NCBI GenBank assembly: GCA_003131635.1 | Contig: PKVZ01000071.1 | Coordinates: forward strand, 58,226-122,225 | Source: Acidobacteriaceae bacterium | GTDB lineage: Bacteria > Acidobacteriota > Terriglobia > Terriglobales > Acidobacteriaceae | Direction of reading: 5' to 3' | DNA length: 64,000 bases | Shown: positions 2,875 through 23,964 of the stretch, in pieces | How positions within the stretch are numbered: position 1 is the first letter of the stretch | Layout: every line of letters starts with the position of its first letter | Position numbers and translations under genes: made by a program | Notes under the pieces: model-generated | What the model was told of the DNA's origin: nothing | Seen by the model: the letters and a program-made list of their open reading frames with translations, nothing else | The model's database searches: none

Positions 2875-2898
2875 TACCGTGACCGTGTAGTTCATAGT

Positions 2899-2918
2899 GA
2901 AGTTCGTAGCCGAACTTC
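2899..2918. other. Perfect 8-bp stem-loop upstream of xylB
   Basis: GAAGTTCG and CGAACTTC flank the four-base loop TAGC in the gap between the TPR gene and xylB. There is no T-tract, so it is not a standard terminator. It could be an operator or a 5'-UTR hairpin of the xylose block. The symmetry is certain and the function is a guess. Confidence 0.45.
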
Positions 2919-2998
2919 TCGGGCCGGCTCGCAGGTGGGCCGGGCAGGTGCGGCCGCGATTTACAGTGGCAGCTGCACGGACCCGGAGGCGATTACAT

Positions 2999-4486
2999 AT
3001 GTATCTTCTGGGAATCGACGTGGGAACCGGCGGCACGCGTGCCCTCGTCATCGATGAGAGCGGACGCGTTATTTCCTCAGCCACCGAGGAGCATCAGCCT
3101 TTTGCGTCCCCTCAAATCGGCTGGGCGGAGCAGGATCCTCGTGACTGGTGGCGCGCCTGCGGAATAGCGGTGCACAAGGCGCTGGCACAAGGCCAACTGC
3201 GTGGTGAACAGATCGCGTGCGTCGGATTTTCCGGACAAATGCATGGAGCGGTCCTGCTGGACGCTCATGAGCGCATCGTACGTCCCGCTCTGATCTGGTG
3301 TGACGTCAGGACTGAGAAGCAATGCCGGGACTTGACAGCACAAATCGGCGCGGAACGTCTGATCCAACTTACATGCAATCCCGCGCTCCCAAATTTCACT
3401 CTGACGAAATGTTTGTGGGTCCGGGAAAATGAGCCCGAAAACTGGAGCCAGGTCCGCTCGCTCCTGCTGCCGAAAGACTACGTGCGATTTCAATTGACCG
3501 GCGAACGCGCCACCGACGTGGCGGACGCCTCCGGCACTCTACTGCTCGATGTTGCCAATCGCCGCTGGTCGAAGGAGATACTGGAACTGGTTCAGATGGA
3601 TGAATCGCTTCTGCCGGCGTTATATGAATCGCCCGCAATCTGCGGCCAAATTTCTGCTGGCGGCTCGGCCGCTACCGGCCTGCAACAGGGAACGCCGGTA
3701 GTGGCTGGTGCTGGAGATCAGGCGGCCGGCGCCATCGGCATGGGAATCGTTTCAGAAGGAGCGGTAAGCGCAACTATCGGCACTTCGGGAGTAGTTTTCG
3801 CAGCCACGGATCGTCCAGCGCTCGATCATCGCGGACGCTTGCACACTTTTTGCCATGCAGTTCCCGGACGCTGGATGGTGATGGGGGTCACCCAGGCTGC
3901 AGGACTGTCGTTGCGTTGGTTTCGCGATCAGTTTAGCGGGGGCAATCGGCTTGAGTCTTACGAGAGCCTAACTGCCGAGGCCGCAAAGGCTCCTCCCGGG
4001 TGCAACGGCCTGCTGTGGGCGCCCTACCTGATGGGCGAACGCACACCCTACCTCGACCCGGAAGCACGCGGAATTTTAGTTGGCTTGACTGCGTCTCATA
4101 CGCGGGCTCATGTGATTCGCGCGATTCTTGAAGGAGTCGCTTTCAGCCTTCGCGACACCTTCACGATTTTTAAAGAAATGGGATTTCCCGTAAAGACGAT
4201 TCGCCTCGGCGGCGGCGGGGCCAGGTCGGCCCTCTGGAGGCAGATTCAAGCGGATATCTATGGCCAACCGGTTCAGACGGTGGAGGCGGAGGAAGGCGCA
4301 GCCTACGGTGCCGCGATCCTGGCAGGCGTCGGAGTCAAGGCGTGGCCCTCAGTTGACGCCGCTTGCAACGCGGTGGTGCGCGTTTCACAGAACACAAATC
4401 CAAGCTTGGAAGACTCGCAGCTTATGGAAAAGACTTATGCGGTGTATCGGCGCATATATCCTGCGATGAAGAACATACTCCACTAA
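2999..4486 (+). CDS. xylB: Xylulokinase (FGGY family)
   Basis: Phosphorylates D-xylulose to xylulose 5-phosphate with ATP, the second cytoplasmic step of the isomerase pathway for xylose. The protein begins MYLLGIDVGTGGTRALVIDE, the FGGY N-terminal phosphate-binding strand. It then shows ALIWCDVRT, an AGAGDQAAGAIGMG glycine-rich segment and LGGGGARSALWRQIQADI in the C-terminal FGGY domain, with a length of 495 residues as usual for XylB. I chose ATG 2999 because GGAGG lies nine bases upstream. A longer in-frame start at 2897 would add 34 arginine-rich residues not seen in the family. xylA follows, which supports D-xylulose over other FGGY substrates such as glycerol or gluconate. Confidence 0.92.
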   Translation: MYLLGIDVGTGGTRALVIDESGRVISSATEEHQPFASPQIGWAEQDPRDWWRACGIAVHKALAQGQLRGEQIACVGFSGQMHGAVLLDAHERIVRPALIWCDVRTEKQCRDLTAQIGAERLIQLTCNPALPNFTLTKCLWVRENEPENWSQVRSLLLPKDYVRFQLTGERATDVADASGTLLLDVANRRWSKEILELVQMDESLLPALYESPAICGQISAGGSAATGLQQGTPVVAGAGDQAAGAIGMGIVSEGAVSATIGTSGVVFAATDRPALDHRGRLHTFCHAVPGRWMVMGVTQAAGLSLRWFRDQFSGGNRLESYESLTAEAAKAPPGCNGLLWAPYLMGERTPYLDPEARGILVGLTASHTRAHVIRAILEGVAFSLRDTFTIFKEMGFPVKTIRLGGGGARSALWRQIQADIYGQPVQTVEAEEGAAYGAAILAGVGVKAWPSVDAACNAVVRVSQNTNPSLEDSQLMEKTYAVYRRIYPAMKNILH

Positions 4487-4503
4487 GTGATAAACTCCTG
4501 CGG

Positions 4504-4575
4504 CTGGAGCAATCGCCGGAGCAATCGCTGGAGCAATCGCGAGAGAAATCGCTAGAGAAATAGATGGAGAAATAC
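4504..4575. repeat. 12-bp tandem repeat x6 running into the start of xylA
   Basis: Six adjacent 12-bp units lie between xylB and xylA: CTGGAGCAATCG, CCGGAGCAATCG, CTGGAGCAATCG, CGAGAGAAATCG, CTAGAGAAATAG and ATGGAGAAATAC. The fifth ends in TAG. The sixth begins with an in-frame ATG and carries the GGAG that serves ATG 4579. The array therefore supplies the ribosome-binding site of xylA and possibly its first codons. Confidence 0.88.
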
Positions 4576-4578
4576 ATT

Positions 4579-5751
4579 ATGACCAGTGCGAACGACTACC
4601 AGCCCCGCGCCGAAGACAAGTTTTCGTTCGGCCTGTGGACAGTGGGCAACCGCGGACGCGATGCCTTCGGCGATGCCGTGCGCCCGCATATTTCTCCCGC
4701 TGAAATCGTCTCCATGCTGGCGGAAGTCGGCGCCTGGGGCGTCAACCTGCATGACAACGATCTCGTGCCGATCGACGCAACCCCCGCCGAACGCGACAGC
4801 ATCGTTCACTCGTTCAAGCAGGCTTGCGAAGGCAACAAGATTGTTGTTCCCATGGCGACCGTCTCACTTTTTTTCCACCCCGTATTTCGTGATGGAGCTT
4901 TCACCGCCAACGATCCTGAAGTCCGTGCCTACGCCCTGCAAAAGACCATGCGGGCCATGGATATTGGAGCCGAGCTAGGCGCCAGGATTTTTGTTTTGTG
5001 GGGTGGCCGCGAAGGCGTGGAGACTGACGCATGTCGCCGGGCGGATGAGGCGATCAAGCGATTGCGCGAGGCCGTCAACTATCTCTGTGAATACAATATC
5101 GACCGCGGATATGGCATGAAGTTCGCCTTGGAAGCCAAGCCCAACGAGCCACGGGCCGACATTTACATGGCCACTACCGGCCAGTATCTAGGCTTCATTC
5201 CTACCCTTGATCATCCGGAAATGGTTGGCGTGAATCCTGAAGTCGCCCACGAACACATGGCGGGACTGAACTTTATGCACGCTGTGGCACAGGCATGGGA
5301 AGCGGGCAAACTTTTTCACATCGATCTAAACGATCAAATGCCGAATCGATTCGACCAGGACCTGCGTTTTGGATCTTCCAATCTGAAGTCTGCATTCTGG
5401 CTGGTAAAGTTTCTCGAAGACGTCGGCTACGATGGCCCCCGCCACTTCGACGCGCATGCCTACCGCACCGAGGACTATGAAGGCGTAAAAGACTTCGCTC
5501 GCGGCTGCATGCGGACTTATCTGATCTTGAAGGGCAAGGCTCATCGTTGGAACGCCGACAAAGAAATACAAGCGATCCTGAGTGAGATTTCGGCCAAGGA
5601 AAACTCCACCTTCGACCCAAGCCACTTCTCGAAAAACAACGCTTCCCAGTTGCTGGCTCGCGCCTTTGACAAAGAAACAATTCTGAAGAAGCGCCTGCCG
5701 TATGAGCGTCTCGATCAGTTGACGGTTGACCTGCTGTTGGGTGTGAGATAA
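4579..5751 (+). CDS. xylA: Xylose isomerase
   Basis: Interconverts D-xylose and D-xylulose with two divalent metal ions, in the cytoplasm. The sequence resembles the shorter (about 390-residue, actinobacterial-type) family: [18 protein letters not shown] near the N-terminus, the catalytic HDND motif in GVNLHDND, the metal/substrate segment [12 protein letters not shown], and HIDLNDQ plus [15 protein letters not shown] later. I placed the start at ATG 4579 because GGAG lies nine bases upstream and the protein then begins [15 protein letters not shown], close to family members. ATG 4564, in frame and inside a tandem repeat, is the alternative and adds MEKYI. The gene lies between xylulokinase and a sodium/solute symporter, a full xylose uptake and entry set. 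Confidence 0.95.
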
Positions 5752-5809
5752 GAAAACCTTCAGCCAGCCTTTTCTGAATCGCTTTCAGACAGATGTGGGA
5801 AAACAAACA

Positions 5810-7513
5810 ATGACGCTACTGGCAGCGACCGCCGTGCCCACCCGACTGGTACATCTTGCTCCCGTCGATATTGTCATCGTTGTTTTTTATTTTGCTCTCG
5901 TGCTCTCGATCGGCTGGTACCTAAAAGGCCGTGCCAATACCGGCGAAGATTTTTTTATGGCAGGCCGCGAGATGACGGCGTGGGTGGCTGGCCTCAGTTT
6001 TCTTTCGGCTAATCTGGGCGCGCTCGAATTGATGGGTTGGGCGGGTTCGGCCTACCAGTACGGCATTCTCGCGACACACTGGTATTGGATCGGCGCCATC
6101 CCGGCGATGCTTTTCCTCGCGCTGGTCATGATGCCGTTCTACTACATTTCCAAAACCCACTCCGTGCCGGGATATTTAAAACTGCGATTCGGTGAGCCCA
6201 GCCGCGCCCTCTCGGCGGTCTCGTTCGCCTTCATGACGGCGCTCATGAGCGGCGTCAACATGTTTGCCATGGCTAAGGTCATGCAAATCGTGCTGGGATG
6301 GGACATCAATTTCAGCATCTGGGTTTCGTCGTTGACCGTGGCCATTTATGTGACGCTGGGCGGCCTGCGCTCGGCAATCTTCAATGAGGTGCTGCAATTC
6401 TTTTTGATCTGGGCCGGCGCCCTGCTGATCCCGATACTCGGATTATATGAAGCCGGTGGGTGGACTAATCTCAAGCTGCAGATCGCTCACCGGGCCTCGG
6501 AGCAGTATGTGCATCTCTGGTCTGGTCTGGGTTCATTCAGCAATAATCCCATGGGAATCAACTGGGCCGGCATTGTCTTCGGACTGGGCGCGATTATTTC
6601 GATGGGCTACTGGACCACGGACTTTCTCGTGGTGCAGCGCATTCTGGCCGCGAAAGATATTCGCAGCGCGGAAATGGCTCCTATCATCGGCGCCGGATTC
6701 AAGATGTTCGTCCCCATCATCGTGATCCTGCCCGGCCTGCTGGGCTTGGCGGTACTGCCGGAAAAACTGGTTCCCGAGTCGGTGGCCGCGGTGACGGGAG
6801 GCCACAGCTACAACGATGTTCTCCCGCTCATGCTCGCCCGCTATTGCGGACCCGGACTTCTCGGCCTGGGTGTCACGGCGCTCATCGCCGGCTTCATGTC
6901 CGGCATGGCCGGCAATGTTAGCGCCTTCACCACCGTCTGGACTTATGACATTTATCGTCCGCTGATCAATAGCAAAGGCAGCGATCATCATTACGTAAAC
7001 ATGGGGCGTTGGACCACAATCATCGGCGTGCTCATCAGCGTCGGTACTGCGTATCTCGTAATGCAGTTCGCCAGCATCATGGATTACGTGCAGGCGCTAT
7101 TCAGTTTCTTCATCGCTCCTCTATTCGGCACGGTCGTGCTCGGAATGCTCTGGAAGCGGGCGACTGGCTCCGGTGGATTTTTGGGATTGCTGTGTGGAAC
7201 GCTTTCTTCGATCGGCATGTGGACGTGGGTAAGAATCGATCCGACCGCGTTGCGGTATGTGGCGCTCTCGTCGCACGCTAAAGCCCTGGCTCAGGATATG
7301 TATCAGGCGCTCTGGTCTTTTGTAGTCTGTGTAGTGGTCACCGTGGTGGTGAGTCTGGCGACAAAACCGATGCCTGACCGCGCATTGACTGGCTTGGTTT
7401 ATGGACTGACAGAAGTTCCCTCGGTCGGCGATGTCCCGCTGTATCAGAAGCCGCTCTTCTGGGCAGCGGTCGTCACCGTCGTTTTTTTCATACTGAACAT
7501 AATTTTTTGGTAG
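5810..7513 (+). CDS. Sodium/solute symporter (SSS family), probable xylose/sugar transporter
   Basis: A polytopic membrane protein of about 567 residues with roughly 13-14 hydrophobic segments. It starts with the SSS-type first helix DIVIVVFYFALVLSIGWYLK and has GRANTGEDFFMAGREMTAWVAG, the conserved loop after helix 1 of SGLT-like carriers. Members cotransport sugars, amino acids or organic acids with sodium. Its place directly after xylB and xylA suggests xylose or a related sugar; this is context only. ATG 5810 is preferred, with a weak GGGA nine bases upstream; GTG 5795 is in frame. The stop codon TAG lies inside the first unit of a 15-bp tandem repeat. Confidence 0.88.
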   Translation: MTLLAATAVPTRLVHLAPVDIVIVVFYFALVLSIGWYLKGRANTGEDFFMAGREMTAWVAGLSFLSANLGALELMGWAGSAYQYGILATHWYWIGAIPAMLFLALVMMPFYYISKTHSVPGYLKLRFGEPSRALSAVSFAFMTALMSGVNMFAMAKVMQIVLGWDINFSIWVSSLTVAIYVTLGGLRSAIFNEVLQFFLIWAGALLIPILGLYEAGGWTNLKLQIAHRASEQYVHLWSGLGSFSNNPMGINWAGIVFGLGAIISMGYWTTDFLVVQRILAAKDIRSAEMAPIIGAGFKMFVPIIVILPGLLGLAVLPEKLVPESVAAVTGGHSYNDVLPLMLARYCGPGLLGLGVTALIAGFMSGMAGNVSAFTTVWTYDIYRPLINSKGSDHHYVNMGRWTTIIGVLISVGTAYLVMQFASIMDYVQALFSFFIAPLFGTVVLGMLWKRATGSGGFLGLLCGTLSSIGMWTWVRIDPTALRYVALSSHAKALAQDMYQALWSFVVCVVVTVVVSLATKPMPDRALTGLVYGLTEVPSVGDVPLYQKPLFWAAVVTVVFFILNIIFW

Positions 7514-7569
7514 CAGATTTCCTGGTAGCAGATTTCCTGATAGCGGACTTTCTGGAAGCGGATTCCTTG
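7510..7569. repeat. 15-bp tandem repeat x4 between symporter and small membrane gene
   Basis: Four adjacent units: GTAGCAGATTTCCTG twice (identical), then ATAGCGGACTTTCTG and GAAGCGGATTCCTTG. The first unit contains the TAG stop of the symporter gene and the array ends shortly before the next gene's ribosome-binding site. The identical pair followed by diverged copies suggests recent unit duplication. Confidence 0.9.
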
Positions 7570-7588
7570 ATCGATGGCGGAGGCAAAG

Positions 7589-7801
7589 ATGATTTCGATT
7601 TCGATCTGGTTTTTCATCGGCATTTCTCTGGCGGTGAATGGCGCGCTGATCCTGGCTGCGGGAATTTACCAGCTGGTAAATCCCCCAGCGAATCCCGGAG
7701 TGGTCCTCTTCAACTTGCATGCCAATGTGTGGTGGGGCGCGCTGCTGCTGGTGGTCGGCGTTATATATTGTTTCAAATTCGCGCCCCGGCGACAGTCCTG
7801 A
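7589..7801 (+). CDS. Small two-helix membrane protein, function unknown
   Basis: A 70-residue protein with two predicted membrane segments (about residues 3-24 and 44-60) joined by a loop containing NPPANPG and LHANVWWG, and a basic tail APRRQS. GGAGG lies five bases before ATG 7589, so that start is preferred over ATG 7574, which has none. It follows the SSS symporter by 75 bp in the same direction and is probably cotranscribed. An accessory role for the transporter is possible but unproven; I do not recognise a named family. Confidence 0.7.
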   Translation: MISISIWFFIGISLAVNGALILAAGIYQLVNPPANPGVVLFNLHANVWWGALLLVVGVIYCFKFAPRRQS

Positions 7802-7868
7802 ACGCACTACAAAAACTGTTTCAAGTTGACCCGGGAATTAGCCGCCAGGCATCCCGTTGCACGTTGCT

Positions 7869-7913
7869 GATCGACAGAGCGAAGATCGACAGAGTGAAGA
7901 TCGACAGAGCGGA
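7869..7913. repeat. 15-bp tandem repeat x3 in convergent intergenic gap
   Basis: Three adjacent units, GATCGACAGAGCGAA, GATCGACAGAGTGAA and GATCGACAGAGCGGA, lie between the small membrane gene and the convergent GH13 gene. No hairpin terminator is visible in the 130-bp gap. The unit is unrelated in sequence to the array at 7510 but has the same length. Confidence 0.9.
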
Positions 7914-7931
7914 GCCTTACATCGCCAGTTC

Positions 7932-10385
7932 CTAACCCACTTTGGCGAGTACAACGAACCCGCGCGCTGGGATGTTCGCGTTTATCTGCCCTCCACTCGC
8001 CTGCAACGTGGCCCCGCCGTTGCCCACGTTAGCCCCTCCATAGACCGTGGCGTCGCTGTTGAAAATCTCCTGCCATCCTCCCGCCGGGAGCCGCCACGAA
8101 TCGGTACCGATGAGATATCCCTGATTAAAGGGTGTGTCATTCAGACTGGCCATGATCAGCAACTGCTGGCCAGGAGAGCTGCGCGTGAAAGCGATCACGC
8201 GATTGTCGTTGTGCTGGTAGATGACATCGATTGCGGTCGACCGCGCCGCCGCAGAGCCTGTCGACAGCCGGATCAGGTCCTGATAGAAGCGAAACAAAAA
8301 CTGCCCGTCCCCCGTGCGCTGGCCAATCAAATCTTCCTTATTCAAGAAGAAACCGTCGTATGTGAAATATTTCGCCGCGCCAATTTCTTCTCCCATCAAA
8401 AACATTGGCGTTCCGGCCGATAGCGCCGACAGGCCGAAAACCCAACGGCTGCGCGCCTCGGCACACGTCCGCGTAGCGCCAATCAGCGGCGCATAATTCA
8501 CCGCCGTCACGATCGTGCGCTCGGTGTTGGCATCGTTACCCGCCTCATCGTGGTTTTCGTGATAGACGATTTTCTTGTATTGCGTAGCCAGCAACGCGCC
8601 GGTGAAGTAATCCATGTTGAGTGGCGCCGTCGTGCCGTAACCTGAATTCTTCAGCAGATTCGCGTAGTTGTCGCCGTAGTTGCCGTCGCCGATTAAATGA
8701 TGATAAAAATCGGCGTACCAAACGGCGTCGAATCCCACCCCTCCCTGGTCGAGCGATTGCGTCATCGCGCTCCAACCCGTGTGATCCTCGGCAATCAGGA
8801 ATGCCGCCGGATTCACCATCTTCACCGTTCGCGCCAGTTCCAGCAGAAACTTGATTCCATAATTATTCGCGCTCCCCACCGGCGATCCATCCCAGTTCAA
8901 CGTGTTGTTCTGATGAATGGCATCGGTCAGTTCCACGCGCAGCCCGTCGATGTGAAAGTCGTCGAGCAGCGCCGCCGCGCTGCTGGTGAACATCTGGCGC
9001 ACATTCTCCTCGCTGAAACGCGGAGTGTAACCGGATGACCCGTTGTTTACGTACCCCCCAACCAGCTTTCCCGGATAGTCCGCCGGCTGCCCTTGATACC
9101 AATACCAAACGTTATCCTGCGGCGCGACATTCGGGTCCGAATCGTATCCCCATTCCGACCGTTCGTTATCGCTGGTCGCAAAGTGGTTGTACACCACATC
9201 CAGAATGACCGCGAGGCCACGCTGGTGGCACGCGCGCACGAAATGCTTCAACTGGTTCCCGCCGCCGGCGCTCGTCTGCAGGCAATAGAAAAGAGACGTC
9301 CCGTATCCCCACTGCAGATCGCCATCGAATTCCAACACGGGCAACAGTTCCACCGCGTTCACGCCAAGGTCCGTCAACTTGTCCACAAACGCCATCGCAT
9401 CGGCAAATGTTCCGGAAGAGGTCGATGGAAATCCAAGCGAACCAACGTGCAATTCATAGATGATCAGATTCTCGATGTTCTGCGGAGGCAGTTTTCCAGC
9501 CGTATATTCGCTCGCCCAAAACTCTTGCGCGGGAATCAGACTCTCCTTCGCGATTCCCGTGTCATCAAAGTCCTGAGTAACTTGATCTGGATCGGAAACT
9601 ACCGAACAACTTACGATCCCGTCCAGATCCAGATAAGAACCTGCATAATGCGCGCCCCCAGGATTGGTTCCTCCACGGCCCACTTGATTGCGGGAGAAGA
9701 TATCGACCTTATAAGTCAGCTCGCCTTGTTCATCGGTGATGCGGTACATATACAGGCGATTCATCCAATCGCTAAAGTTCGCAAGCGCTGGCGTTGCGGC
9801 GATGTTACTTTCCCAAATGCCACCGCCTGTCGATACCAGTGGCACCACGGCAGTTGACAAATCCACTCCTGTGCCATCGTCAGCGATGTAGCCAGTTGGC
9901 GTGCCGTTTGCGAGGGTAAACGGTGCAAAGATCACCTCGGCGTTCTGAGCATGCGGCGCCCACACCGCGAAGTGAATCCCCGGCGTCGCCGATCCCGGCG
10001 GGATGTATTTCTGCGCGCCGAATCTTCGGCCGGTTGCGAACCAGTAATCTTGCTGGGTTGCGCCCGCCGCCAGAGGAAAGCTTCGATATCGCTGGCTCGA
10101 ATTTTCATCGGGCACTTCAGTTGCTACCACCCAGGTATTCGGCGCACCCGCGATATCGGCGACCACTCCCCACTGGAAAATGGTTCCCGTCTGCGCCGAA
10201 TCGAACGATGCCGCGGCGTTGAAAGCGTCACAGCCAGTCCCATCTTGCGTGGCCGCCATCGCCACTTCTGTCCATTGATTGGAAAACTGTCCGCTCGCAT
10301 CCCAGCTTCCGGACAGCCGAACATTGCTGAATAGCTGGCGCTTTACCCCGCTGTGGAACGTAAAGTTGACCGTGATTTGAGCCAT
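7932..10385 (-). CDS. GH13 alpha-amylase/branching-enzyme-like protein with altered nucleophile motif
   Basis: An 817-residue member of glycoside hydrolase family 13. An N-terminal starch-binding or Ig-like region (about 1-130) is followed by a CBM48-like domain beginning at GIHFAVWAPHAQNAEVIF, then the catalytic barrel and a C-terminal beta domain. Conserved regions I (LDVVYNH, 395-401), III (LIAEDH, Glu533) and IV (HENHD, 609-613) are present. Region II reads DGLRVELTDAIH, so the usual Asp nucleophile is Glu485 (codon GAA, complement of 8931-8933). No signal peptide is seen. Substrates in this group are alpha-glucans such as glycogen, starch or maltodextrins. The Asp-to-Glu change may make it weak, altered or inactive. 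It could be annotated as branching enzyme or trehalohydrolase-like; I cannot decide. Confidence 0.85.
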   Translation of the reverse strand: MAQITVNFTFHSGVKRQLFSNVRLSGSWDASGQFSNQWTEVAMAATQDGTGCDAFNAAASFDSAQTGTIFQWGVVADIAGAPNTWVVATEVPDENSSQRYRSFPLAAGATQQDYWFATGRRFGAQKYIPPGSATPGIHFAVWAPHAQNAEVIFAPFTLANGTPTGYIADDGTGVDLSTAVVPLVSTGGGIWESNIAATPALANFSDWMNRLYMYRITDEQGELTYKVDIFSRNQVGRGGTNPGGAHYAGSYLDLDGIVSCSVVSDPDQVTQDFDDTGIAKESLIPAQEFWASEYTAGKLPPQNIENLIIYELHVGSLGFPSTSSGTFADAMAFVDKLTDLGVNAVELLPVLEFDGDLQWGYGTSLFYCLQTSAGGGNQLKHFVRACHQRGLAVILDVVYNHFATSDNERSEWGYDSDPNVAPQDNVWYWYQGQPADYPGKLVGGYVNNGSSGYTPRFSEENVRQMFTSSAAALLDDFHIDGLRVELTDAIHQNNTLNWDGSPVGSANNYGIKFLLELARTVKMVNPAAFLIAEDHTGWSAMTQSLDQGGVGFDAVWYADFYHHLIGDGNYGDNYANLLKNSGYGTTAPLNMDYFTGALLATQYKKIVYHENHDEAGNDANTERTIVTAVNYAPLIGATRTCAEARSRWVFGLSALSAGTPMFLMGEEIGAAKYFTYDGFFLNKEDLIGQRTGDGQFLFRFYQDLIRLSTGSAAARSTAIDVIYQHNDNRVIAFTRSSPGQQLLIMASLNDTPFNQGYLIGTDSWRLPAGGWQEIFNSDATVYGGANVGNGGATLQASGGQINANIPARGFVVLAKVG

Positions 10386-11920: not shown

Positions 11921-13003
11921 CTAGGCTCGGTCATAAAAACGAAAGAACAGCGACTGCTTTGACACGGGCTCCGCTTTCTCGTTGAGCGCTGCCATCTGTT
12001 GCTGGTTGAGCGGGGTGAACTCCCGCGCCAATTGCACGTTCTGTTCCAGCTGGGCGACGGAATCGCAACCAATAATGACGGTACTAACCGGCAGTGAAAG
12101 CGAGTAATACATCGCCTGCCGCATATCCAGCGTTCCCGGCGTAGGCGCCAGCACCATCCCTTCCCACGAATGTTTCTGCTGCTCAATTGGCGGTGGTGTC
12201 CACGATGCAAGGATGCGGCCACGCGCCGGGACTTTCATTCCGATAATGCCCATCTGCTTCTCGACAGCCAGAGGCAGCAGTTGCTCCGAGAAGCTGTAGT
12301 GATGCGGATCGGCAGCATTGACGGCCATCAGGATCGTATCGAATGAATAGCGATGAATCGCTTCGATCAGCGCGTCCGGCCGGTAGTGTCCGGTAATGCC
12401 CAGATAGCGCACAATTTTCTGATCGCGCGCTTGCAGCAGCGCCTCCATCGCTCCGCCCTTGGAAAATATCTCGTTGATGTCCGTCATCGTTCCAATATCG
12501 TGCAGTTGCCACAAGTCAACGTGATCGGTCTGCAACAGCTTCAGCGAAGTCTCAATCATGCGCATGGAACCATCGCGCGTCCGCTCTTTCGTTTTGGTAG
12601 CCAGGAACGCGGCGCTGCGGCGCTGCTTCATCACTTTACCGACGTATTGCTCGCTCCAGCGATCCGGCCCACCATAGATCGAAGAGGTATCGATGTAGTT
12701 CACGCCGAGATCGAGAGACCTCTCGATGATGGGAACGGCGATGCCTTCGTTGCTAGGCTTCTCGAGCGCAGCTTGGCCGCCAAGACTGAAGATGCCCACT
12801 TTGTATCCCGTCTTTCCCAGATTCCGAGTTGGCATCGCGTCTGCGGTTGCAGTACGGGAAGGCGCAGAAGGCGCATTTGACTGCCCACTCACAACCTCCG
12901 GAAGGGCTGCGGACCCTAACACAGCAGCCCCCAGGATTCCGCCCGCCTTCAGAAAAGTTCGTCGATTGCTGTTGGATGACTTGTCTGATGAATGCTTGCT
13001 CAT
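11921..13003 (-). CDS. Tat-exported aldo/keto reductase
   Basis: An NADP-dependent-type aldo/keto reductase fold with a twin-arginine signal NRRTFLKAGGILGAAVLG at the N-terminus, predicting export in folded form. The catalytic tetrad is recognisable: Asp and Tyr in DTSSIYGG, Lys in FLATKTKER and His in LWQLHDI. ATG 13003 is preferred because GGAGG lies five bases upstream; an in-frame ATG at 13015 adds four residues. The likely substrate is a sugar-derived carbonyl, judged only from the neighbouring Tat-exported sugar enzymes. How a nicotinamide cofactor would be supplied outside the cytoplasm is unclear, unless it is bound before export. Confidence 0.87.
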   Translation of the reverse strand: MSKHSSDKSSNSNRRTFLKAGGILGAAVLGSAALPEVVSGQSNAPSAPSRTATADAMPTRNLGKTGYKVGIFSLGGQAALEKPSNEGIAVPIIERSLDLGVNYIDTSSIYGGPDRWSEQYVGKVMKQRRSAAFLATKTKERTRDGSMRMIETSLKLLQTDHVDLWQLHDIGTMTDINEIFSKGGAMEALLQARDQKIVRYLGITGHYRPDALIEAIHRYSFDTILMAVNAADPHHYSFSEQLLPLAVEKQMGIIGMKVPARGRILASWTPPPIEQQKHSWEGMVLAPTPGTLDMRQAMYYSLSLPVSTVIIGCDSVAQLEQNVQLAREFTPLNQQQMAALNEKAEPVSKQSLFFRFYDRA

Positions 13004-13076
13004 AACGCCCTCCATGTACTGCGTAGCACTCTACGATAACGCCAATGCGCGCTGGAATCCATGCCCAAGTCGAAAA

Positions 13077-17197: not shown

Positions 17198-17245
17198 GAT
17201 TCAGCACAACGTTGATTCATCACTACATCGATTCATCACTACAAT
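17198..17245. repeat. 16-bp tandem repeat x3 between larA-like and SDR genes
   Basis: On the plus strand the units are GATTCAGCACAACGTT, GATTCATCACTACATC and GATTCATCACTACAAT. The third contains the stop codon of the larA-like gene. The first touches the ATG of the SDR gene, so in the minus orientation the array fills the whole gap. No ribosome-binding site outside the repeats is visible. Confidence 0.85.
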
Positions 17246-18507
17246 TTACCGCCGTAAGCCCACAGCCCTAACCCCGGATTCGGAATAAAGAAAACCTCTT
17301 CGCCCTCCACGCGGTTATATCCGTGGTGAAGCCTCTGCGGGTTGTAGCTCGCCAGCGCGGTTTTCAAATCGCCATACTCATAGCCAACGCCTTCAACTTC
17401 TTCCTGGCTGAGATGTCCGGGGCACCACCGGATGGTGAATCGTCCTTCGGAAGATCCATGAATAAGATGAGCAGCCGCGCTCAAATCGCCCGCGAGATCC
17501 CCATTAGCGCTGACCGCCGCCAGCGTGGCCGGAGTTCCGCGATAACCGTATTTCCGGATCAACCCGTCGATGGCTGGGTCTTCGCCAAATTTCCTAACGC
17601 CGGGCGCAAGAATAATCAGCTCCGCACTGTCCGCCATCGCCATTCGCGTGCGATACACCGCCTTGTTGCCCAGCCACGTGCTGTGAAATTCATGCGGATC
17701 GAGATAAACCACCGCCTTTCGAATCGGCGTGTCCAGGATCTCGAAATTCACTTTCAGGCTTAGCGCGGCGGCGCGGTGAAAGCACTCGGCGTCGTCGCCA
17801 ACGAACAGGCCGCGCACTGCCAGCCGGTCGTCTGCCGCCCGTCCCACCACGGTAAGCACGTACACAATCGGCAAGTCCCGCAAAAAACGATCCGACGCGT
17901 AATTGAGAACGTTGCGCACCGGGTTCTCGGCGCGCCCCATGATGCGCTCCATTCCGTAAACCGCGCCCAGATAATGGCTGCGGTTTATGCTCTCACGCCC
18001 TCCCGTCCCCACAAGAATGTTCTTGTTGTAGTTGGCCATGCCGATCACTTCGTGCGGCACAACCTGGCCAATCGAAAGAATAAGGTCGAAGCCCCCATGC
18101 GCAATCAGCCGGTTCACTTGTGCCGGCCACGCATAGTTCAGCTTGCCCTCCGATTGCTCGTGGATGAATTCAGCCGGAACCTCTCCCAGAGTCTCCACAT
18201 CGGTTCGCCAGTTGTGAACCCGAAAAAGCTCCTGCGGAATAGCTCCAAACATTCGCGTGATCTGTTCCGGCCGCATAGCCGCATGCGTGCCCAGCGCCGG
18301 CAGAACTGCTTTCATCCGATCGCCATAATATTCCCATGCGTAACGCGTCAACTCGCCCGCGCGCGAGTGTACGCGGCTCTGATCGGGTGGCACCACCAGC
18401 ACGCTCTTCCGTTCCCCAAGCCGTGACAGACTTTCCACCAGCAGATCGCGCAACTCATCCAGAGATAGATCGCTTTCAACCCCGCCCGTCGCGCAGTAGA
18501 GGCTCAT
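17239..18507 (-). CDS. larA: LarA-family nickel-pincer-dependent racemase/epimerase
   Basis: A 422-residue LarA homologue. Lactate racemase uses the nickel-pincer nucleotide, attached through a Lys. Here the key residues are kept: Asp42 and Arg45 in PPDQSRVH, His75 in LGTHAAM, His152, Lys162 (spacing +10) and His178 (spacing +16 from the Lys), matching the His174-Lys184-His200 pattern of the Lactobacillus enzyme. ATG 18507 overlaps the stop of the MFS transporter gene (ATGA). Cofactor genes larB, larC and larE are not in the window. With uxaC and a hexuronate-type transporter upstream, a 2-hydroxy sugar acid is a more likely substrate than lactate. The symbol marks the family, not the substrate. 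Confidence 0.85.
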   Translation of the reverse strand: MSLYCATGGVESDLSLDELRDLLVESLSRLGERKSVLVVPPDQSRVHSRAGELTRYAWEYYGDRMKAVLPALGTHAAMRPEQITRMFGAIPQELFRVHNWRTDVETLGEVPAEFIHEQSEGKLNYAWPAQVNRLIAHGGFDLILSIGQVVPHEVIGMANYNKNILVGTGGRESINRSHYLGAVYGMERIMGRAENPVRNVLNYASDRFLRDLPIVYVLTVVGRAADDRLAVRGLFVGDDAECFHRAAALSLKVNFEILDTPIRKAVVYLDPHEFHSTWLGNKAVYRTRMAMADSAELIILAPGVRKFGEDPAIDGLIRKYGYRGTPATLAAVSANGDLAGDLSAAAHLIHGSSEGRFTIRWCPGHLSQEEVEGVGYEYGDLKTALASYNPQRLHHGYNRVEGEEVFFIPNPGLGLWAYGGKL

Positions 18508-19841
18508 GCGTCGAGTTCCACCTTCCTCAGTCCGGGGGCCAGCAGACACAAAACAATCAAAGCCAGCAGGTAAGCGCTGGCCGCGATGCCGAAGAGGCTG
18601 GCGTAACTGTGCGTCAGTTGCAGGATGTGGCCTGCATAAAAAGCAAAAAGCGCGCTGCCCACCGATCCCGCCATTCCGCCAATACCCACCACCGATCCTA
18701 CCGCGCGGCGCGGAAACATATCCGACGACGTGGTGAAGAGATTCGCCGACCAACCCTGGTGCGCGCCCGCCGCAATACTGATCAGCGCAATCGCCGTCCA
18801 CACCGACTTGACGCCCGAGGCCGTGTAGATGGGAACCACCATACCAGCGCACAACAGCATTGCCGTAAGCCGCGCATAGTTGGGCGAGATCCCCATGCGG
18901 CGGAAGGGCGTGGGCAACCAGCCTCCCCCGATGCTGCCAATGGCCGACACGTTATAAACAATGATAAGCGGCAATCCAAGGTGCGAAAGGTTCAGATTGA
19001 ATTTCGCGCTGAAGTACGACGGCAGCCAGAACAAATAGAAATACCAGATCGGATCGGTGAGAAATTTCGCAATGGAAAACCCCCACGTCTGCCGGCAGCG
19101 TAACAATCGCCGCCAGGGCACGACCGGAGACGGCCCCATCTCCTCGGCCGCCTCCTCATAGATGTGCCGCAGTTCCCCGGCTGTCAGCGTGGCGTGATCG
19201 CTGGGTTTACGATAATAGCGAAACCACCACAAAATCCAGAGCACGCTGAATAGGCCGGTCGTCAGAAATGCCGCATGCCATCCCCAGCGCAGCGTTACCC
19301 ATGGCACGATTGCCGGAGCGAGGATCGCTCCCACATTTGCTCCCGAGTTGAAGATGCCCGTTGCCAGTGAGCGTTCGCCTTTCGGAAACCATTCGGCCAC
19401 GGTCTTGATCGCGGCGGGAAAGTTGCCCGATTCGCCAAGTCCGAGAAAGAACCGCGCAAAACCAAACTCCAGCACCGTGCTGGCCAGCGCGTGCCCCATC
19501 GCGGAAAGGCTCCATACCGCCATCACCAGCATGTAGCCAATACGCGTGCCCAACTTGTCAATCAGCCGCCCGGCAGCCAGCAGGCCGATCGCGTAGGCAA
19601 TCTGGAACGCGTCCACAATGTAGCCGTAACTTACCTCCGTCATGCCGATGCTGTGTTCGAGCGTGGGCTTCAGGATCGCGATCACTTGCCGGTCCATGTA
19701 GTTGATCGAAGTGGCGACGAACAGCATGGCGCAAACCGTCCAGCGCACCCGTCCCAACTTGGTGCTGGGAGGTACGCTGTGAGGAACGGCAAGAGATGTG
19801 CCGCGCTCCGCTTCGCTGTCCAAAGGCATTCTGTCCGCCAC
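18504..19841 (-). CDS. MFS transporter, anion:cation symporter (hexuronate/ExuT-like) family
   Basis: A 445-residue twelve-helix carrier. After a polar N-terminus come VRWTVCAMLFVATSINYMDRQVIAIL, typical of helix 1 in the ACS group, then AGRLIDKLGTRIGYM (the MFS loop 2-3 motif) and FLGLGESGNFPAAIKTVAEWFP in helix 4. ACS members import galacturonate, glucuronate, glucarate or similar acids with protons. The gene lies 4 bp downstream of uxaC and overlaps the larA-like gene by 4 nt, so hexuronate import is likely. It could carry another aldonate; direct evidence is absent. Confidence 0.9.
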   Translation of the reverse strand: MADRMPLDSEAERGTSLAVPHSVPPSTKLGRVRWTVCAMLFVATSINYMDRQVIAILKPTLEHSIGMTEVSYGYIVDAFQIAYAIGLLAAGRLIDKLGTRIGYMLVMAVWSLSAMGHALASTVLEFGFARFFLGLGESGNFPAAIKTVAEWFPKGERSLATGIFNSGANVGAILAPAIVPWVTLRWGWHAAFLTTGLFSVLWILWWFRYYRKPSDHATLTAGELRHIYEEAAEEMGPSPVVPWRRLLRCRQTWGFSIAKFLTDPIWYFYLFWLPSYFSAKFNLNLSHLGLPLIIVYNVSAIGSIGGGWLPTPFRRMGISPNYARLTAMLLCAGMVVPIYTASGVKSVWTAIALISIAAGAHQGWSANLFTTSSDMFPRRAVGSVVGIGGMAGSVGSALFAFYAGHILQLTHSYASLFGIAASAYLLALIVLCLLAPGLRKVELDA

Positions 19842-21324: not shown

Positions 21325-23964
21325 TCAGTGTCCCAAATATCGGATGCGGCCGGTGAAGGCGCGCCCGTTGCCGTCGATATAAGTCGGGAGCGGATGGGTT
21401 TGATCGAGCACCCCATTTGCCAGTATGTCGTTGGCATGGTTGGTAATGTTGTCGAAACCTCCGCGCAGCGCCCAATAGCGCCCGAACAGATGGAAGCGCT
21501 TTTCAAATTGCAGATTCACAGAATAATAAGTAGGAAGACGAAAAGTTCCCGGAGGATACCCCGGATAAATCTCCGCTTGGTCGGTGGTCGCAAGGAATGG
21601 CAGCCCAGTGCGCGCATCCGCGGAGTAAACCATGTCCACCTTGTGCAAGACGGGCAACTTGAAAAACGGCAGAATGCCCCATCCCACAAAGCGATTCGGC
21701 GTGTCCCACGGATAGGGACCGGGAAGCTGCGGGCTCAACAGCGGAATATCCAGACTGAAATCAAACACCTGATTGGTATGCGAACTCGACCGCGTGTAAG
21801 CCCCGAAGATTTCGTAAGCCTCGCGAAAACGGTGACGCAGACTGATCTGGAAAGCGTCATAGCGGTCGTCACGTCCATTCTGCAGCAGGAAGTTGCCGTC
21901 CACCGCGCCATCCAGCGTGTTGTAGGCGAAGCCATGCGTGCCCCGCTTCTCCAGGAACTCCAACTTCAGAAAGATGGCAGACGGCAATTTCGTCTCCAGG
22001 CCAAGGCTCCAGTTCAGGTACCGCGGCGCGTCGAGCGTATTCCGGTCCACAACAAACGTGGTCGGCGCCGGAATCGGCGCACTCGTCGGATTTCCATTGG
22101 CATCCGTCGGCTGCCCACTCGCATTGAAAAAATAATCAACTCTCTGCCCCTCGAAAGGTTGATGGATCAATCCCAGGCTCGTTGCGTCATAGATGACGCC
22201 AACTCCCGCCGACAGCTTGGTATTGCCCTCCTCGTCCAGAACGTAAGTCCCTGCCAGACGCGGCGAGAACAGCGGGGTTCGCACGATTTCATCCCAGTCG
22301 AAACGCAAGCCCGGCTCGATCAGCAGACGATTCGTGAGCAGCCAGCGATCCTCGGCGTAAGCGCTGGCCTCGGCGTTGTAAATTGTCGAGTAACTGCCTC
22401 CCGAGAACACCGAATAACGCGTGCACGTTGGCGACGGCGCCACCGGCACGCCATTCGCATCGGTAGGGCAAGGCTGGAACGGCTCGTTCGGCTGCAGATA
22501 CGATATCGGCTGCCGCAGAAACTGTGCGTCATAGTTCAACCGGTCCAGGTCCGTGCCAACCTTAATATCGTGGCGTCCGTGCCACTGCTGCGGCGGAAGG
22601 TAAAGATTCGCCAGGCCCTGCACTCTCCGCCCCAGCGCGCTCTCGTTCAGATAGTAGTTGCCTCCGGCTCCCAGCGGCGCTTCGATATAAGGCCCGGTTC
22701 CGTGCGGAGTCAGCGCTACGTTGTACTGGTCTACGCCGAATCCGCTTTCCAGCAGTGCTCCACCGCGCAAATAATATTGGTCCTTGAGCGAGCCAATGTA
22801 GGCGGTCTCCGCGTCGGTTGGCGTCGTCGCCTGCGGCATGAGCACCGACAGTCCGTCATATTCGTCGTGATAGTAGTTCGACAGAAAGCTGGCCGTCACA
22901 ATGTTGCGCGTCGTCAAATTAGTTTGCAATTTCGCCAGGTTGTCCACGCGCCACACGTGATCCGCATCCGCACTGGACGGCAGTTGCTTCGTGATGTCGT
23001 TGTCGTACTCCCCATCCAGTGCGTCGATGAACCACACCTTCCCTTTTCGAATCGGACCGGACATCGTCACAATGGGCACCCACTGGCCGAGCGAAATCCC
23101 CTTGATGTCCTGCAGCCCGGGCGTAAAGTCGGTGGCGGTAACCCGAAAGTGATCGTCGCCCATTCGCGTGTTCAACGCGAGCACGCCGCCCGACCCTTTG
23201 CCAAACTCCGCTGGCTCGCGGCTCGGGGTCACCTCAATCGAGCGGAATGATTCGATGCTGCTTCGCACCACCAGCGCGCCATTCGTCGGCTGCGTTACGT
23301 TGAAGCCGTCCAGCAAAAGCAGCGTTTGGTAGCTCTCCGCGCCCGCCACATGCGGCTGCCCGTAAGCATCCGGTGTGACTCCTGGAATGAAGGTCAGCGC
23401 ATTGCGGTAGTCGTGCGACCCGGGATACGGAATGTCGATAATCTCCGTCGCCGTCAGTTCTTCTTTGGTCGACACCTGTGCCGGATCGATCGCGGGCTTG
23501 GATTCCGCAACATTCACCACCTCACGCGCCTCTTGCTGATGCGTAAGCGTCACGTCCACATTCCCCGTAACCGCGACTTGCACGTTGGGCTCAACTATTG
23601 CGTAGTAGCCAGTCTTCTCCACCCGGATTTCGTAAGCTCCGGAAGCAAGGTTACTGAATTCGCAGTGGCCTACGAAGTCAGTTTCGCAGCGCAAAGCAAC
23701 CGCGGCCGGTGCCGCTTGTAACTGCAACCGCGCCGATCGCACGGCCACGCCGTTTTCATCCGTGACCGTAACCGTGAGTTTCTCCCTCGTGGCACTTCGC
23801 TCCGAAGAAGCCTGCTCAGGAGACGTGCGTATTGAAGCAGGTAGTGAAGCAGATTGCGGCGCGGAACAACAGGATGGGTTCGATGTCTGCGCGGCCCCCG
23901 CTGGCGCGCATAAAGCGGCCGCGAACAGAAATATCCATTTTACGGATGCGCCCCGCCCAGCCAT
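21325..23964 (-). CDS. TonB-dependent receptor with carboxypeptidase-regulatory-like N-terminal domain
   Basis: An 879-residue outer-membrane receptor of the Oar-like type common in Acidobacteria. A signal peptide covers residues 9-25. A CarboxypepD_reg-like beta-sandwich (about 55-130; LTVTVTDENGVAVRSARLQL) is followed by a plug domain with IIDIPYPGSHDYRNALTFIPG and EVTPSREPAEFGKGSGGVLA, and a beta barrel with aromatic-rich strands. The last residue is His rather than Phe. It probably imports oligosaccharides or binds glycans for the enzymes downstream on the same strand, 87 bp away. It is shorter than the usual Oar-like receptors (about 1,000-1,200 residues). Confidence 0.9.
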   Translation of the reverse strand: MAGRGASVKWIFLFAAALCAPAGAAQTSNPSCCSAPQSASLPASIRTSPEQASSERSATREKLTVTVTDENGVAVRSARLQLQAAPAAVALRCETDFVGHCEFSNLASGAYEIRVEKTGYYAIVEPNVQVAVTGNVDVTLTHQQEAREVVNVAESKPAIDPAQVSTKEELTATEIIDIPYPGSHDYRNALTFIPGVTPDAYGQPHVAGAESYQTLLLLDGFNVTQPTNGALVVRSSIESFRSIEVTPSREPAEFGKGSGGVLALNTRMGDDHFRVTATDFTPGLQDIKGISLGQWVPIVTMSGPIRKGKVWFIDALDGEYDNDITKQLPSSADADHVWRVDNLAKLQTNLTTRNIVTASFLSNYYHDEYDGLSVLMPQATTPTDAETAYIGSLKDQYYLRGGALLESGFGVDQYNVALTPHGTGPYIEAPLGAGGNYYLNESALGRRVQGLANLYLPPQQWHGRHDIKVGTDLDRLNYDAQFLRQPISYLQPNEPFQPCPTDANGVPVAPSPTCTRYSVFSGGSYSTIYNAEASAYAEDRWLLTNRLLIEPGLRFDWDEIVRTPLFSPRLAGTYVLDEEGNTKLSAGVGVIYDATSLGLIHQPFEGQRVDYFFNASGQPTDANGNPTSAPIPAPTTFVVDRNTLDAPRYLNWSLGLETKLPSAIFLKLEFLEKRGTHGFAYNTLDGAVDGNFLLQNGRDDRYDAFQISLRHRFREAYEIFGAYTRSSSHTNQVFDFSLDIPLLSPQLPGPYPWDTPNRFVGWGILPFFKLPVLHKVDMVYSADARTGLPFLATTDQAEIYPGYPPGTFRLPTYYSVNLQFEKRFHLFGRYWALRGGFDNITNHANDILANGVLDQTHPLPTYIDGNGRAFTGRIRYLGH

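Follow-up and report, generated by a model that had tools for sequence, protein, structure and literature searches.

An aspartate-to-glutamate change private to one Acidobacteriaceae genome at the nucleophile position of a GH13 enzyme, probably a recent mutation or a consensus error

The window, by which we mean the whole stretch of 64,000 nucleotides of Acidobacteriaceae DNA that was analyzed, carries on its minus strand (positions 10385..7932) a gene for an 817-residue, branching-enzyme-like GH13 protein, identified from its open reading frame and Pfam matches. The alpha-amylase catalytic domain profile (PF00128) scores 52.6 bits against a cut-off of 22, as a GH13 protein should, and the alpha-amylase C-terminal domain (PF02806) scores 45.4 bits (cut-off 21.2); the match to CBM48 (PF02922) is marginal at 23.2 bits (cut-off 22.4). 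An AlphaFold2 model built from 24 rows (mean pLDDT 87.3, pTM 0.90) predicts the (beta/alpha)8 barrel fold of GH13 and a beta-strand-rich N-terminal domain at residues about 1-115 (10041..10385, minus strand), for which no Pfam match was found. In the model, residue 485 closes a strand (481-485), residue 515 lies inside a helix (504-524), residue 533 directly follows strand 529-532, and the loop at 613-617 has low pLDDT.

All 50 of the PDB fold matches listed for the model are branching enzymes, with TMt reaching 0.82, and the top PDB chain by sequence is 8dge, an "Alpha amylase, catalytic domain protein" (1.9e-29). Among the NCBIfam matches listed, no equivalog cut-off is reached. TreZ (malto-oligosyltrehalose trehalohydrolase) gives the best score of these, 173.3 bits, yet falls under its cut-off of 538.8, and the GlgB equivalogs score 150.8, 147.3 and 122.4 bits against cut-offs of 577, 741 and 463.95, respectively. 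Glycogen branching enzyme GlgB belongs to subfamilies GH13_8 and GH13_9. The window protein resembles GlgB in its fold and in GH13 regions I, III and IV, but differs in its own N-terminal domain, its Glu at position 485 and its scores far under the NCBIfam cut-offs, and identity to GlgB is 16-21% in the fold alignments among the matches listed. From these comparisons, we read the gene as a member of a widespread, apparently unnamed and uncharacterized GH13 clade near the branching enzymes and TreZ. Homology places the window copy in GH13; canonical catalysis by this copy does not follow from it.

Several neighboring features differ from the genome of the closest relative, which we call the sister genome. 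A 5.03-kb block (2895-7921), whose end is 10 bp away from the stop codon of the GH13 gene, is missing from that genome, in which the two flanks meet directly at the matching place (L111 8601/8603). The block encodes an FGGY sugar kinase (2897-4486), a xylose-isomerase-like protein (4564-5751) and a sodium:solute symporter (5795-7513). Next to the GH13/NAPRTase pair, at 11921-13015, lies an aldo/keto reductase gene whose product matches a Tat signal weakly; the 40 kb compared from the sister contig contain no counterpart of this gene. A lactate racemase (LarA)-like gene lies at 17239-18852 and has the top dN/dS among the genes compared, 0.257. Farther along, an 879-residue open reading frame (21325-23964) has probably been exchanged or is fast evolving, because it is 77.6% identical to its sister counterpart (dS 0.75), whereas the other compared genes of the sister contig show 93-97% protein identity.

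The residues expected at a GH13 active site are present in the window protein with a single exception. Conserved region I is DVVYNH (residues 396-401; 9183..9200, minus strand, from the sequence), and region II is DGLRVELTD (residues 480-488; 8922..8948, minus strand), which the AlphaFold2 model places where strand 481-485 ends. Region III contains Glu533 (8787..8789, minus strand), the putative general acid/base by alignment and a Glu in 44 of 44 orthologs; region IV contains His612-Asp613 (8547..8552, minus strand), of which Asp613 is the putative transition-state stabilizer, and is conserved in 43 of 44 orthologs, the one other being a fragment that is gapped there. The exception is codon 485, at the nucleophile position (8931..8933, minus strand), which reads GAA (TTC on the plus strand) and places a glutamate within DGLRVELTDAIH. 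Thus, the Glu acid/base and the Asp stabilizer of GH13 are found in the window copy, and the Asp nucleophile of region II is absent. The initial annotation had reported a Glu at the GH13 nucleophile codon, one base away from Asp, with regions I, III and IV intact. Each of these observations holds: GAA at 8931-8933 falls exactly in the nucleophile column; the hallmark residues outside position 485 (Asp396, Asn400 and His401 in region I, Glu533 in III, and His612 and Asp613 in IV) are all in place; and one base separates the two states, since the ten orthologs read carry GAT or GAC at this codon. That annotation also allowed for another Asp occupying the catalytic site, and the alignment shows none. 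A register shift that would bring Asp488 there is ruled out, as all 44 orthologs align at Arg483 and column 488 is variable (Thr in 30, Asp in 8, Ala in 3, Gln in 3).

The distribution of Glu485 was surveyed at two depths. Scanning a single genome for each species yielded 80 loci, or 110 together with those of the relatives search, and 109 of the 110, a set that includes distant GH13 enzymes, had a tblastn match across residues 475-500. Position 485 is Asp in 95 of these 109, gapped in 13 and Glu in one, the window's own copy (L081); in the 13 gapped loci, the gap stems from the pairwise alignment, and inspection by eye shows an Asp after it. The ortholog set proper combines loci L001-L026 with three order-wide surveys, which were positive in 4 of 257, 11 of 243 and 9 of 145 genomes; its 47 loci reduce to 44 distinct sequences once three identical rows are dropped. 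The named orthologs come from Acidobacteriota, Cyanobacteriota, Chloroflexota, Myxococcota, Gemmatimonadota, Actinomycetota, Planctomycetota, Pseudomonadota, Spirochaetota and Riflebacteria. In the alignment, all 44 have Asp485 and none has Glu485, so the glutamate is an anomaly in the nucleophile column beyond chance. A lineage-conserved Glu485 is therefore rejected, and conservation of the Glu among homologs, which the initial annotation had put forward as the check on its reading, gives way to a change private to the window's genome. Homologs with Asp at this place, one half of what the annotation said would refute it, are what the survey found. Of the interpretation offered there, the given sequence does have Glu at the nucleophile position, and altered or lost activity is what one would naturally expect of it if the base is real; the proposed glycan-binding role is without evolutionary support because no relative conserves Glu485. 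One genome of the species was compared, and the glutamate could be fixed in that species. The window's genome has 10 PF00128 matches in all, the window gene included, and a typed region II pattern reads Asp in all its other GH13 loci where the pattern matched; in L114, it found no match.

The gene itself is accessory. Within the genus, 2 of 45 genomes carry it (search at E 1e-100), and at E 1e-60 a search of 396 genomes sampled from the phylum returned one copy, that of the window. Matches occur in 28 phage records, with the best place below 60% identity in each, and one plasmid, from Nostoc, carries an ortholog (47.5% identity). That plasmid (L124, NZ_CP046704.1) is conjugative, and its ortholog is flanked by an SMP-30 gene and by oxidoreductase/hydrolase genes with Nif11-type leader peptides; asparagine-synthase-like and lasso peptide B2 genes lie farther out. 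A Bryobacteraceae ortholog fragment (L005 6-1490, the same gene as L135) has an in-frame TAA at fragment residue 50, with homology on either side of it.

The nearest ortholog, G036, is the gene on contig PLUI01000247.1 of L001 (the gene is identical and the flank is found in that contig). Its protein is 94% identical to that of the window and its codon 485 is GAT. In the tree, the window copy and L001 are sisters with support of 100/100, on tips of 0.033 (window) and 0.021 (L001). The codons of the two genes differ by 111 synonymous and 47 replacement changes, and their 173 base differences occur all along the gene, 123 of them at third codon positions. The resulting dN/dS is 0.132 gene-wide and 0.092 over residues 301-700, and other genes give 0.077-0.257 in the 11 of 16 with a match, the remaining five having none. 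The GH13 gene has been under purifying selection, which, given the low gene-wide dN/dS, acted for most of the time since the sister split. When L002, L003 and L005 serve as outgroups, parsimony assigns seven replacements to the window and eight to the sister, 32 of 47 being ambiguous, and therefore shows no general acceleration.

A second private change lies 90 bp away from codon 485. Codon 515 (8841..8843, minus strand), in helix 504-524, reads CTG for Leu at an otherwise invariant arginine; all 44 distinct orthologs have Arg515, with Arg codons in the 10 orthologs read. Across 8.15 units of tip length, the other 44 tips show 41 changes that are unique and break an otherwise invariant column, a rate at which 0.17 such breaks are expected on the window tip against the two observed (Poisson P 0.012). 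A single break has P 0.15, and site 485 was pre-selected by the finding. Arg515Leu hints at recent relaxation or at a local sequence error and alone is not significant. With two private changes at invariant sites, relaxed selection is a better fit than one random error, and we treat it as a weak hint. Decay across the whole gene is not supported by the dN/dS and the open frame, with Arg515Leu a weak hint the other way.

We consider it highly probable that the clade consists of ordinary canonical GH13 enzymes and that the window's copy carries an Asp485Glu change, from recent mutation or from an assembly-consensus error, that likely cripples it if real. The clade would follow the standard retaining mechanism, in which Asp485, at the end of beta-strand 4, attacks an alpha-glucan at its anomeric carbon, with Glu533 as acid/base and Asp613 stabilizing the transition state; we infer these three roles by alignment to the GH13 catalytic triad (PMC5347038, in part). 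One base change, GAT or GAC to GAA, makes Asp485 read as Glu in the window's genome; it postdates the split from the 94%-identical sister species, and the glutamate is no lineage trait. If the base is real, Glu would keep the charge while its extra methylene would misplace the carboxylate, leaving little or no glycosyl transfer or hydrolysis, and we expect a strong reduction in activity. Its loss is not certain, because some GH13 proteins with altered triads, such as BmaN1, are reported to be active (PMC5347038, in part).

Mutation and consensus error carry about equal weight, the second private change favoring real relaxation slightly. That the gene is losing function in the window's strain under relaxed constraint, with Asp485Glu and Arg515Leu as early missense decay, comes close to an even chance: two invariant columns are broken on a short branch, the genome has further GH13 genes, and the gene is dispensable, being present in only two of the 45 genomes of the genus. 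The pre-selection of site 485, the intact frame and low overall dN/dS, and the balanced replacement counts all count against it. It is a serious but somewhat less than even possibility that the organism itself has Asp485 and that the draft contig holds a consensus error or a minority-strain base. The difference is a single base private to one assembly, a draft of 308 contigs that is 88.5% complete and 3.5% contaminated; the sister genome is likewise metagenome-assembled, and a second odd base lies nearby. The undamaged frame argues against error, however, as do sister differences that are distributed along the gene as in real divergence.

Glutamate is the nucleophile in other retaining glycosidase families. 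It is also a carboxylate, so that Glu485 might still serve as nucleophile with altered specificity or rate, and in a Lutzomyia GH31 protein the nucleophile place is annotated as Glu (E408), in silico only (PMC8063059, in part). With no ortholog sharing Glu485 and no obvious compensating change in Arg515Leu, we regard such re-tooling as improbable. The fuller proposal, that one Acidobacteriota species has a GH13 enzyme with a working Glu nucleophile or a protein switched to a different reaction or to binding, and that Arg515Leu is a linked adjustment, strikes us as more doubtful still. GH13-type pseudoenzymes exist, for example plant MKIP1, a branching enzyme that has lost catalysis, but that loss is conserved across a widely diverged clade (PMC13172542, in part), whereas Glu485 occurs in one genome, is shared by none of the 44 orthologs and accompanies intact residues in the other catalytic regions, making a selected pseudoenzyme or glycan-binding protein the least probable reading.

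Two sets of altered-triad proteins are among the closest known systems. Like the window protein, the BmaN1 group (named GH13_45 in PMC11448133, in part) consists of GH13 proteins with an aberrant catalytic triad, but in that group Lys takes the nucleophile place and His that of the stabilizer, both conserved in 27 sequences (PMC5347038, in part), whereas the window has Glu485 and Asp613 and a single Asp-to-Glu change in one genome. MKIP1, a plant class III branching enzyme, is similarly a branching-enzyme relative with a changed triad; unlike the window protein, it shows a clade-wide loss in which His and Asn replace two Asp, and it was inactive when assayed (PMC13172542, in part). A partial literature search found no measured Asp-to-Glu replacement of the GH13 nucleophile, and published cases may exist.

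Should Glu485 prove real and the enzyme active, the rule of an Asp nucleophile in GH13 would have an exception, and the protein would test how strictly the carboxylate must be placed. As matters stand, the main lesson is that when one draft genome shows an altered catalytic residue, relatives should be checked before function is inferred. The GH13 clade itself, spread over many phyla and with no curated equivalog among the matches listed, is the more useful target.
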